Of a DNA stretch of 64,000 nucleotides, positions 1 to 3,938 are shown piece after piece. Below the pieces are notes generated by a model that was not told the DNA's origin, ran no database searches, and worked only from the letters and a program-made list of their open reading frames with translations. The DNA lies in assembly GCA_020852835.1 (NCBI GenBank), contig JADZAC010000027.1, positions 1-64,000 on the forward strand. Direction: 5' to 3'. The stretch comes from Flavobacteriales bacterium (GTDB lineage Bacteria > Bacteroidota > Bacteroidia > Flavobacteriales_F > PHOS-HE28). The position numbers and the translations under genes were made by a program. How positions within the stretch are numbered: position 1 is the stretch's first letter; every line of letters starts with the position of its first letter.

Positions 1-1222
1 CGTACAATTTGCTCAAGAGCCGCTGGCTTGGGTCGTTCGTGGTGCCATCATCGTAGCCGCGGTAGGCGCCGTAGATGAAGTAGCCGCCATCCTGTGCGGG
101 TTCAATGCCCAGTATGCCTTGGTACCACGTGGGGTTGATGATCTGGTCATTAAACCCCCCGCAGCCGCTGCCCTCAAAATAGCCCGGCAACACGTTGCCC
201 GCCGTATCGAGCATGGCAATGCCGCCATGCACCTCGCCATTGATGCGGTCGAAATACCCCGTAATGGCAAGCATATTGTCGCCAATGGGTTCCACATGGG
301 TTACCATGGGATCATGTGCATAGGGCATATTGGCATGGGCAGAGCCAAAATTCAAATTGTTATTGAAGGTGGGGTCCAATTGACCGTTGGGCAGGAAGCG
401 CACCAAACCCACGGTATCCGGAGAACCGGCGAAATGCCAACGTCCATAAGCAAGGGCTTTGCCTCCAGGCTGGGGCAGAAAACCACCGCTCTCGGTCCAA
501 CCATCGATGGGTGGTACCTGGAAGCTGGTGTCCAGCGAGCCATCGCTGTGTACGCGGAACATGCCTTCCACGGGCACCCCTTCAAAAAACCCGGAGCCGC
601 CGCTGAGCAGGAACTTGCCGTCCGGCATTTGCTTGATGTGCTCAAAGGCCCCGTTGGGCCCACCGATGGAGCGGTGGATGCGGGTAGTGTCCAAGCTCCC
701 GTTGGTATTAAGCCAGACCAGACCGTACTGCCAGCCCATGTATCCGTGCAACGTGTCCCATAGAGTGAAGTTGCCCGCCAACAGGATCCGACCGTCCGGG
801 AAGATGTGGAAATCACCCCATTGGCCTCCGCCCAAACGAGGGTCCGGAGGATTCTGGAAGGAAATATCCCGCGTACCATCCATCCAAAACCGGCGTAAGC
901 TCATTCCATTTTCCACATAGAACATATCATCTCCCCATGGAACGATTCTACCGCCCATTGGATTGTACCAGGCGGGTTGCCCTGCCGGACTGGGTATGAT
1001 CGCGCCGTTTGGTGCAAGCAATAAACCAGAGCATTGGGTGTCCCATGTAGGATACCTCAAGTTACCCGACATGATGATATTCCCGTCTGGCCGCTCCAAC
1101 ACATCGCCTACTGCTATGGTCTGCACGGGAAAATGGAAACTAGGGTCCAGGTCGAAGGGCTGCTGGGCGGCAGCCACCGTGGCGGCCCCCAGGGTCGCCA
1201 CGGCAACTATGCGCCAGTTCAT
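1..1222 (-). CDS. Delta-60 repeat secreted protein, 3' end beyond window
   Basis: The frame is open for 407 codons from the ATG at 1222 to the left edge, so the C-terminus is missing. An N-terminal signal peptide (about 15 residues, ending in AAA-QQ) is followed by repeated blocks of the type PDG-x-ILLAGNF and G-S-LDTSF or GQLDPTF. These are hallmarks of delta-60 repeats, which fold into beta-propeller-like secreted proteins. In Bacteroidota such proteins usually end in a T9SS sorting domain, which would lie outside the window. The start overlaps the stop of the small protein gene upstream (ATGA), so the two are probably co-transcribed and translationally coupled. Function beyond an extracellular or surface location cannot be told. 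Confidence 0.85.
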   Translation of the reverse strand, partial: MNWRIVAVATLGAATVAAAQQPFDLDPSFHFPVQTIAVGDVLERPDGNIIMSGNLRYPTWDTQCSGLLLAPNGAIIPSPAGQPAWYNPMGGRIVPWGDDMFYVENGMSLRRFWMDGTRDISFQNPPDPRLGGGQWGDFHIFPDGRILLAGNFTLWDTLHGYMGWQYGLVWLNTNGSLDTTRIHRSIGGPNGAFEHIKQMPDGKFLLSGGSGFFEGVPVEGMFRVHSDGSLDTSFQVPPIDGWTESGGFLPQPGGKALAYGRWHFAGSPDTVGLVRFLPNGQLDPTFNNNLNFGSAHANMPYAHDPMVTHVEPIGDNMLAITGYFDRINGEVHGGIAMLDTAGNVLPGYFEGSGCGGFNDQIINPTWYQGILGIEPAQDGGYFIYGAYRGYDDGTTNDPSQRLLSKLY

Positions 1223-1613
1223 CGCTTAACGATCAGTTTAGCGGTGCCCAAGGTCCGTCCGCCGTTCACCAGTTCAACGGTATAGGCACCGGGGGAAATG
1301 CTTCGGGTGTCCCACACGGTCTGGCCTTCGGCTGCCTGTATCGGAAGCCGTTGGAGCTCCTTGCCCACCGCATCCCGTATGCTCAGGTAGGCCTTGTCCG
1401 GGGTGGCCTTAAAGCCGTAGGCCATAGTGGCATACGAACTGGCCGTTGCCTGCACCCCGCCGGTGTTGAAGTCCAGCAACTGCCCGGAGCCGGAGTTTAC
1501 CCACAAGTTATCTTGTGCCATCAGCAAACCCGCTCCCACCAAGGGGTTCAGCGGGGGGGGGGGGCTGCGAAAACCGCTACCAGTAAGGGTTTCAGAAGGT
1601 CTGATTTTCTCAT
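1219..1613 (-). CDS. Small exported protein with T9SS-type C-terminal domain; reading frame broken at a C12 tract
   Basis: From the ATG at 1613 the frame encodes a good signal-peptide start (MRKSDLLKPLLVAVFAA), then enters a run of 12 C and stops two codons later. The mature part (AQDNLWVNSG onward to stop 1219) is in another frame with only TTG or GTG starts. With 10 or 13 C the two parts would join into one protein of about 131 residues. The last 70 residues resemble a T9SS type A sorting domain: ISPGAYTVEL, then LGTAKLIVKR at the end. A -7 box (TAGTTTTG) 32 bases before the ATG supports 1613 as the true start. Either the tract is a phase-variation switch or it was miscounted in sequencing. 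The gene overlaps the delta-60 gene by 4 bases. Confidence 0.65.
1553..1564 (-). repeat. Homopolymer of 12 C in a signal-peptide coding region
   Basis: Twelve consecutive G on the plus strand, read as C on the coding strand, at codons 17-20 of the small exported protein. It sits exactly between the hydrophobic core and the cleavage region, where Pro-rich slippage products would be tolerated. Confidence 0.9.
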
Positions 1614-1644
1614 TTAGAATGGTCCTTCATGGTAAGGTTCGGGG

Positions 1645-1652
1645 CAAAACTA
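1645..1652 (-). promoter_or_regulatory. -7 box TAGTTTTG
   Basis: Exact match to the Bacteroidota -7 consensus TAnnTTTG. The predicted transcript start is near 1640, giving a leader of about 27 bases before the ATG at 1613. It would drive the small exported protein and the delta-60 gene. The rest of 1614-1814 holds nothing else I can name; a weak GGCCG/CGGCC hairpin lies at 1749-1763. Confidence 0.55.
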
Positions 1653-1814: not shown

Positions 1815-3938
1815 TTACCGGATCAGCACGAAGCTCCCGTTGTATTCCCGTTCCAGCGGGCCGTACTCGGTAAGCCAGGCCTTGAAGGAGAAGATGCCCG
1901 GCATGGCATCCTTGCCGTCCCAGCCCTTGGAGGGATCGGTGGTGCTGAATACCAGGTGGCCCCAGCGGTCGAAGACGTCCAATTGGTACTGGCGCGCGCC
2001 CTTTACACTGGGCTTCCATATCTCGTTGTGGCCGTCGCCGTTGGGCGAAAAGGCCGTGGGCGCGAAGAAGAGGTGATCGCCGATGAACACGCGCACGGTG
2101 GCCGTGTCCATGCAGCCCTGGCCGCTGGTTGCCGTGAGCAATGCCGTGTACCAGCCCGCATCGCTGAAGGTGTGCACGAAGTCCGTGGTGTCGTAATGGA
2201 TGCCTTCCACCAGGAAGTCCCAGTGCTCGGTATCGGTGCTGTGGTCGCTGAAGGTGACCTTGGGGAAGAGCACGGTGGTCACCGAGGGCAGTGCGGTGAA
2301 GGCGGCCACCGGTTGCGGCCAAACGGTGACCGCCCCTTGCAGGGTGCGGGTGCGCGCGGCAATGCAGCCCGAATCCGTGGCCACGGTGAGGCTCACATCA
2401 TAGGTGCCCGGGGTGGTGTAGGTATGCTGCGGCAGGCTGTCCGTGCTGGTGCTGCCGTCGCCGAACTGCCACAGGTACTGCATGGGCGTCCAGGCGGTGG
2501 AGGTGTTGTTGAACTGCAGGGCGAGCGGCTGGCAGGCGCTGGTGTCCGCCAGGAACAATGGCTCGGGCAGGGGGAAGATGCGCACAGTATCGGTGTAGCC
2601 CGCATCGCAGCCGTTCGAGGTCACGGCCACGCTCACGGCATGGCTGCCCAGGTCCGTCCAGTCCACATGCACCGTTTGGCCGGTGAGGTCGGGCGCAGTG
2701 CCGGTGCCCACGTCCCACAAGAAGGTGGCGGTGGAGTCGAAGTTGCCGAAGACCGACAGCTCCACGGGTTGTTGGTCCGGGCAGCGGATGGGCGGGGGCA
2801 CGAAGGCCACGGCCAAGGGATCATACACGGTCCAGGTGTGGAACGCCGTGTCGGCACAAGGCCATCCGGGGCTGGCGATCAGGCTTACCGTGTAGGTGCC
2901 CGGTGCCGGAAAGGTGAACTGCGGGTTCTCCGCACTGGAGGTGTCGGCCAGCGTGCCCGATACGCCGAAGTCCCACAGGAAGGAGGTGGTGCCGCTGCTC
3001 TGGTTGTCCATCTGCACCCCCAGCCCGTTGCAGTGTTCCTGCTGTTCGGCAAAGTCGGAGATGATGGCTTGGGCGCAGGCCACCACCAGGAAGCGGAAGT
3101 CGCGGATCACCGTGTTGATCAGCACGCCATCGCGGTATTCGTGCACGCACAGGCTCACGGCGAAGTTGCCGATGGCGGTGGGGTGCATGGTGAGCACGCC
3201 GTTGTCCACCCCGAAATCCACCGGCGGGTTGGATGCCAACTGGTTGTTGGTGGAGTAGCCCGGTCCCCACACCACCGATGCGTAAGGCGGTGGCGCCGGC
3301 GGGTCGGGGATCACATTAAAAACGTTGTCGCCGCCCTGCAGCGGGGCGCACATGGCATAGGCCAGCGAGTCGCCGTCGGGGTCGGTGGCCAACTGGGTCA
3401 GCGCCGTGGTCTGGTCCAAGCAGAGCACCATGGGCGGGTCATCGTCAAACGCAGGTGAGCTGTTGGGGCCGTTCACGTCCGGGTCGGGCACTGTCACCGT
3501 GCAGGTCATGCCCTGCTGGCCCGGGTTGAGCAGGTTCACCATGGACGGCGAGCGGCAGCAGCGCTGGTAGGCCAGGATGTAGCCGCCGGTGCCCGAGGGC
3601 AAGTGGATCACCCCGGTGTACACGCCCTCCCGCGTGCAGATGCTCGGCGGTGCGGTAAGGCACGGGTTGGAGGTGGTCACCGCCAAGTTCACCTCCATGG
3701 GCAGGTTGAAGTGCACGGTATTGATCAACACGCCCGCGCTGCTGAAAATGCCAATGGCCGCCGTGGCGTCCAGCGCGGTGTTGTTGGTATTGTCCGGCCC
3801 GCAGTCGCGATAAAGGCGGAGCGTCACCTGGTAGTCGTCGTTGCCCAAGTAGGTGTAGTACATCTCGCCGCCCAGGATGTGCGTGGCAAAGCTGTTCAGG
3901 CCACAGGCCAGCAACAACGTGAACAGAAGGGCGCGCAT
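1815..3938 (-). CDS. PKD-domain secreted protein with gliding-motility-type C-terminal domain
   Basis: A 707-residue exported protein. Residues 1-18 form a signal peptide; the mature N-terminus starts THILGGEMYYTYLG, a family signature of large Bacteroidota surface proteins. The middle (about 290-620) carries several PKD-like modules, visible as YLWQFGDGSTSTD, PQHTYTTPGTYDVSL and FTFPAPGTYTVSL. The last 80 residues are a CHU_C or type B sorting domain (FFAPTAFSPNGDGHNE, then FDRWGHLVF), which directs export by T9SS. The role is probably cell-surface adhesion or matrix binding; the ligand is unknown. It is transcribed alone, and a TATATTGG box lies 15 bases before its ATG. Confidence 0.9.
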   Translation of the reverse strand: MRALLFTLLLACGLNSFATHILGGEMYYTYLGNDDYQVTLRLYRDCGPDNTNNTALDATAAIGIFSSAGVLINTVHFNLPMEVNLAVTTSNPCLTAPPSICTREGVYTGVIHLPSGTGGYILAYQRCCRSPSMVNLLNPGQQGMTCTVTVPDPDVNGPNSSPAFDDDPPMVLCLDQTTALTQLATDPDGDSLAYAMCAPLQGGDNVFNVIPDPPAPPPYASVVWGPGYSTNNQLASNPPVDFGVDNGVLTMHPTAIGNFAVSLCVHEYRDGVLINTVIRDFRFLVVACAQAIISDFAEQQEHCNGLGVQMDNQSSGTTSFLWDFGVSGTLADTSSAENPQFTFPAPGTYTVSLIASPGWPCADTAFHTWTVYDPLAVAFVPPPIRCPDQQPVELSVFGNFDSTATFLWDVGTGTAPDLTGQTVHVDWTDLGSHAVSVAVTSNGCDAGYTDTVRIFPLPEPLFLADTSACQPLALQFNNTSTAWTPMQYLWQFGDGSTSTDSLPQHTYTTPGTYDVSLTVATDSGCIAARTRTLQGAVTVWPQPVAAFTALPSVTTVLFPKVTFSDHSTDTEHWDFLVEGIHYDTTDFVHTFSDAGWYTALLTATSGQGCMDTATVRVFIGDHLFFAPTAFSPNGDGHNEIWKPSVKGARQYQLDVFDRWGHLVFSTTDPSKGWDGKDAMPGIFSFKAWLTEYGPLEREYNGSFVLIR

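Follow-up and report, generated by a model that had tools for sequence, protein, structure and literature searches.

A tract of 12 C residues in a short minus-strand gene at the beginning of the window (the whole 64,000-nucleotide stretch of Flavobacteriales contig JADZAC010000027.1 that was analysed) is probably the switch of a slipped-strand phase-variable family of large secreted proteins with T9SS tails. Replication slippage within a population would add or remove C residues inside the signal-peptide coding sequence. At an unsuitable length, translation starting at the ATG would end soon after the tract, giving a leader of about 13–40 aa and no export, whereas a tract of 10 or 13 C in this gene would let the signal peptide run into the mature protein. 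Expression would thus be set ON or OFF by tract length, and the window copy would be in the OFF frame. The earlier note proposed a phase-variable secreted protein here, which is the best-supported reading for the family, on the basis of tracts at the same site, their variable length, the use of either C or G, open reading frames under selection, similar tracts in other secreted proteins and the conserved ATGA coupling to the next gene. The window copy itself is a truncated chimera that possibly does not function.

The window gene and its tract

The tract reads as G12 on the plus strand and C12 on the minus strand (Table 1), and its position, the ATG at 1613–1611 and the frame break between them and the mature part are confirmed in the sequence. 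From this ATG the frame encodes MRKSDLLKPLLVAVFAAPPPR and then stops, at 21 aa. With one extra C, or two fewer, the frame reads MRKSDLLKPLLVAVFAAPPPPLNPLVGAGLLMAQDNLWVN..., continuing as MRKSDLLKPLLVAVFAAPPPPLNPLVGAGLLMAQDNLWVNSGS; reading of the frames bears out that 10 or 13 C join the two halves of the gene. The frame 3′ of the tract is open to the TGA at 1221–1219, which overlaps the ATG of the delta-60 gene (1222–1220) as ATGA at 1222–1219, again as first described. A putative Sec signal peptide is seen in the sequence only once the frame is shifted at the tract. The C12 is uninterrupted and lies inside the 5′ coding region, where one-unit changes alter the frame. An order-1 Markov model of the window predicts 0.07 C/G runs of at least 12 nt and about 7.6 of at least 8 nt; two of the latter are seen, the C12 being one, and the model overestimates C/G runs in the window.

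Table 1. Coordinates of the window gene, its tract and adjoining features.
Feature	Position	Strand	Remarks
C12 homopolymer tract in signal peptide, candidate switch site	1553..1564	-	sequence
Start codon and first half of signal peptide (MRKSDLLKPLLVAVFAA)	1565..1613	-	49 nt from ATG to tract, equal in 7 close relatives
5′ block with start codon, complete signal-peptide region, tract and start of the mature part	1439..1616	-	94% DNA identity to own C85 paralog and G028 C94, both full-length
Downstream open frame, 107 aa: signal peptide end, N-terminal stub of large family, truncated T9SS sorting domain	1219..1542	-	
TAGTTTTG, match to Bacteroidota -7 promoter box (TAnnTTTG)	1645..1652	-	31 nt upstream of ATG
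Delta-60 repeat (DUF5122) secreted protein	2..1222	-	ATGA overlap with upstream stop; runs off contig

The -7 box that had been pointed out upstream of the ATG is present, but it is weak evidence alone because TAnnTTTG boxes occur in the window at chance frequency (7 against 7.4 expected), and no clear -33 TTG is seen for it. A second upstream motif, TTGGACCTGTATATCC, was rejected as a regulon motif, since in the genome of origin it has just one exact match, in the window, and one match with a single mismatch, before the paralog on contig C39. The next gene upstream (1815–3938, same strand) has no long homopolymer; its product is a secreted protein of 707 aa whose C-terminal end (FSPNGDGHNE) is of the gliding-motility type.

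As judged from its homologies, the window gene is a recombinant mini-gene, in which about 170 nt of a family 5′ end appear fused to a truncated sorting domain, and not a typical member. A search among relatives matched residues 1–39 of the ORF, at up to 85% identity, to the starts of open frames of about 1,400 codons, and residues 33–106 to the C-terminal ends of such frames. Both matches are also found within the genome of origin (G000), in two full-length paralogs on contigs C85 and C39. The family consists of secreted, T9SS-tailed proteins of about 1,400 aa, of which the window gene is short of some 1,300 residues. Its homology to C85 breaks off near 1439–1448 and is found again only in the C-terminal sorting domain; together with the high identity of the 5′ block, this indicates a recombinant that lacks the middle of the protein. 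The mature T9SS-sorted domain claimed for the gene stands by homology to full-length relatives, but in the window gene's own copy of the domain the first ~20 profile positions are missing, and its PF18962 score of 14 bits falls below the curated cut-off of 27 applied here to type A T9SS cargo. The full-length paralog of the same genome passes TIGR04183 (25.4 against 23). The family protein of ~1,400 aa has no Pfam domain match. The predicted structure of the N-terminal 500 residues of a relative, of modest confidence (mean pLDDT 62, pTM 0.71), is mostly beta-strand, and its PDB matches include many beta-propellers, at low TM-scores.

This architecture raises the strongest alternative, which concerns the window copy only and is compatible with a phase-variable full-length family. 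The copy may be a dead remnant that arose by internal deletion or recombination and in which the frame break no longer matters, and this is about as likely as a functional gene. The interrupted homology and the truncated, sub-threshold sorting domain are consistent with a remnant, as are C-terminal-only fragments of such genes in two other genomes (G022 and G004). Against it, the 107-aa frame is disrupted nowhere but at the tract, by neither a stop nor a frame break, the C12 is uninterrupted and the ATGA overlap with the delta-60 gene is kept.

Out-of-frame tracts in a gene family under selection

A search with an alignment of the mature N-terminus, covering 45 genomes of the genus, found family members in 26, and their 5′ ends were then read. 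A homopolymer or its remnant lies in the signal peptide of 16 members from 13 genomes: C12 in the window gene and C8, C8, C9, C9, C10, C10, C10+C9, C11, C12, C12, C12, C15, C5AC6, G10 and G12 in the others. Seven loci that came from the scan of named genomes belong to Flavobacteriales/Bacteroidetes MAGs, one of which has a bin name, Gw_SlAct, that points to activated sludge. In the seven closest members the distance from ATG to tract is always 49 nt and that from tract to mature protein always 37 nt, and the length differences lie in the tract itself (C8–C12); with one genome per species, this variation is seen between species and paralogs. Two relatives have G in place of C, and it is therefore the homopolymer that is kept, not proline. 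The comparison with relatives that had been suggested as a check thus gave no single fixed in-frame length and no relative starting downstream of the tract. A start downstream of the tract (TTG, GTG or ATG in LNPLVGAGLLMAQ) was rejected for the family, as in the members L090 and L091 the entire n- and h-region is encoded beyond the tract with no intervening start codon, and members that lack a tract begin at the upstream position.

All 16 tract-bearing members are out of frame, eight requiring a shift of +1 and eight a shift of +2, while some 13 members that lack a tract are in frame from an ATG. If a third were expected in frame, this outcome would have P = 0.0015, assuming equally likely frames and independent members. 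Both full-length paralogs of the genome of origin look locked off by their sequence: C85 has the interrupted tract C5AC6, and C39 has lost its ATG (AAG) and retains only C8.

The out-of-frame full-length ORFs are nevertheless under purifying selection. Full-length members have uninterrupted frames of about 1,270–1,420 codons. Their dN/dS is 0.10 between C85 and G028 C94 (442 codons), 0.15 between C39 and G028 C88 (881 codons) and 0.20–0.36 in more distant pairs, and polarised changes on the own-genome branches number 27 synonymous to 9 nonsynonymous for C85 and 37 to 27 for C39. These values apply to the full-length relatives. Long-silent genes would not show such ratios, and the proteins are therefore made now or were until recently. 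A delta-60 gene (DUF5122) also follows intact family members, with the ATGA overlap kept in most of them, six in all (C85 and members in G013, G004, G002, G008 and G026); through this overlap its translation would probably rise and fall with that of the first gene.

Phase variation explains the variable length and fixed flanks of the tracts, the choice of C or G, their location in exported proteins and the selection on OFF genes. By itself it gives no explanation for the lack of any in-frame family member, which departs from the prediction of simple random switching; rare ON states that are selected only briefly would account for it.

An improbable alternative is programmed slippage, whereby slipping of RNA polymerase or of the ribosome within the C/G run would yield a fraction of full-length protein from permanently out-of-frame DNA, the tract setting a low constant level instead of a heritable switch. 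The uniform absence of in-frame members and the purifying selection on ORFs that are out of frame would both fit, and so would the better DNA conservation of the ~100 nt around the tract than of its flanks. Slippage on C/G runs is, however, less established than on A/T runs. The required shift has no single direction, being evenly split between +1 and +2, C and G tracts both occur, their lengths vary widely, and other families of the genus include in-frame states (L134, L216 and L049). A precedent, discussed in PMC2831843, is the transcriptional slippage that rescues out-of-frame poly(A) genes in Buchnera.

The conserved stretch around the tract may also move between genes. When paralogs are compared, identity is 73–100% over the ~100 nt that run from the ATG across the tract, compared with mostly 25–79% upstream and, in distant pairs, over most of the sequence beyond about +160. 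The same leader (88% over 41 nt) precedes an unrelated mature protein at L181. This pattern suggests that the leader block is exchanged between genes or that its DNA is constrained. Taken as common to different mature proteins (L181) and as moving between genes (the window's 5′ block), the leader might be read as an exchangeable signal-peptide cassette that is permanently out of frame and gives low-level full-length protein by programmed slippage on C/G runs, a combination that seems quite doubtful.

Least probable is an assembly miscount that hides a true in-frame gene, since, although homopolymers of 12 are error-prone in some types of sequencing, all 16 members in 13 separate assemblies are out of frame, including C8–C9 tracts, which are normally read accurately, and the interrupted C5AC6, whereas random errors would leave about a third in frame; miscounting is thus unlikely to be the general cause.

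Comparable tracts in genes for other secreted proteins

In 12 genomes of the genus, 97 well-placed C/G tracts of at least 10 nt were considered, and 26 of these are spanned by a signal-peptide-like start in some frame, compared with 10% of random positions from the same loci (P = 3e-6, in a crude test). Among them are tracts in genes for SprB-repeat proteins (L155 and L240), DUF7948 proteins (L133 and L175) and a secreted protein of the genome of origin (contig C43). ON and OFF lengths are both found only in homolog pairs of these other families, as against the window family with its exclusively out-of-frame tracts. One such pair, in G032, has a G10 in frame (L216) and a G15 paralog out of frame (L213); another, in G066, has a C10 in frame (L134) and a C15 out of frame (L135). 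A gene starting MxAPPPLNLFKF has C10 in frame in the genome of origin (L238, contig C32) and C14 out of frame in G028 (L225, contig C42). Sorted by hand, families other than that of the window gene have about 15 OFF to 4 ON states, which is not significantly different from 2:1 (P = 0.19).

Several further features of these loci were observed. SprB-repeat-like proteins of ~425–530 aa have C/G tracts just after the start codon in G024 (L155, L154 and L159), G066 (L134 and L135) and G032 (L213 and L216), with several paralogs per genome in differing frame states. In the MxAPPPLNLFKFATVRAP... gene the tract directly follows the start, and the L225 protein has no Pfam match. The genome of origin likely has a second switch, as predicted from sequence, in a gene for a secreted protein (L239, contig C43) where C10 directly follows the complete signal peptide MKSTRPHVFLLSALGLLPLAGQAQ and the mature frame is shifted by one, out of frame. 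Two other tracts of this genome, C12 at L054 (contig C53) and C11 at L056 (contig C65), lie shortly upstream of the start codons of genes for membrane or secreted proteins and, although not in coding sequence, possibly affect expression.

A few tracts in signal-peptide-like starts also occur in other genera of the class (L250, L254 and L255). At L255, a signal peptide (MRKNTILKALFISAYLLTWGGG) ends with a G11 tract, and the protein that follows, the start of which resembles a TonB-dependent receptor, is out of frame. Two small genomes of genus f42/g42 (G224 and G150) are very rich in poly-C/poly-G tracts, many of which are clustered or lie within ~120 nt of contig ends, so that they are probably assembly artefacts.

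Relation to known switches and biological meaning

The arrangement resembles the poly-C/poly-G surface genes of Neisseria, Campylobacter and Helicobacter, where exported surface proteins likewise have a long tract early in their coding sequence, the frame depends on changes of a single base and several such genes occur per genome. Unlike those systems, the present one belongs to a Bacteroidota genus known from MAGs, involves T9SS tails or SprB repeats and is known from sequence alone. The opa genes of Neisseria have CTCTT repeats in the signal-peptide region; there, as here, the repeat is inside the signal-peptide coding region, so that OFF variants yield a short leader peptide, but the unit is a pentamer rather than a mononucleotide and the mature proteins are unrelated.

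Homopolymers near gene starts are discussed as reversible switches in PMC2831843, among them the 5′ homopolymer of Listeria inlA, which likewise lies close to the start codon, leads to a product truncated to very short length and is reversible by one base; it is a short poly(A) tract, in contrast to the poly(C)/poly(G) tracts of 8–15 across a gene family described here. Phase variation of Bacteroidota surface components is represented by the invertible promoters of Bacteroides capsule and SusC/SusD loci, which switch by recombinase-mediated DNA inversion and not by homopolymer slippage (PMC11868660); the parts of this 2025 review that mention Bacteroides do so mainly for recombinase-driven switching. 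How conserved frame breaks sort into phase variation, recoding and pseudogenes is treated in PMC3711429. Keyword searches of an open-access library of papers found no report of homopolymer phase variation in this lineage. Slipped-strand phase variation is thus a known mechanism that is apparently undescribed for this lineage.

The genus is represented by MAGs, one of them named for activated sludge. If the proposed switching is true, surface proteins with T9SS tails or SprB repeats would be controlled by C/G tracts in this genus. This would suggest that the same device is favoured outside hosts, under pressure from phages, predators or biofilm life, and would account for the broken appearance of such genes in these genomes.
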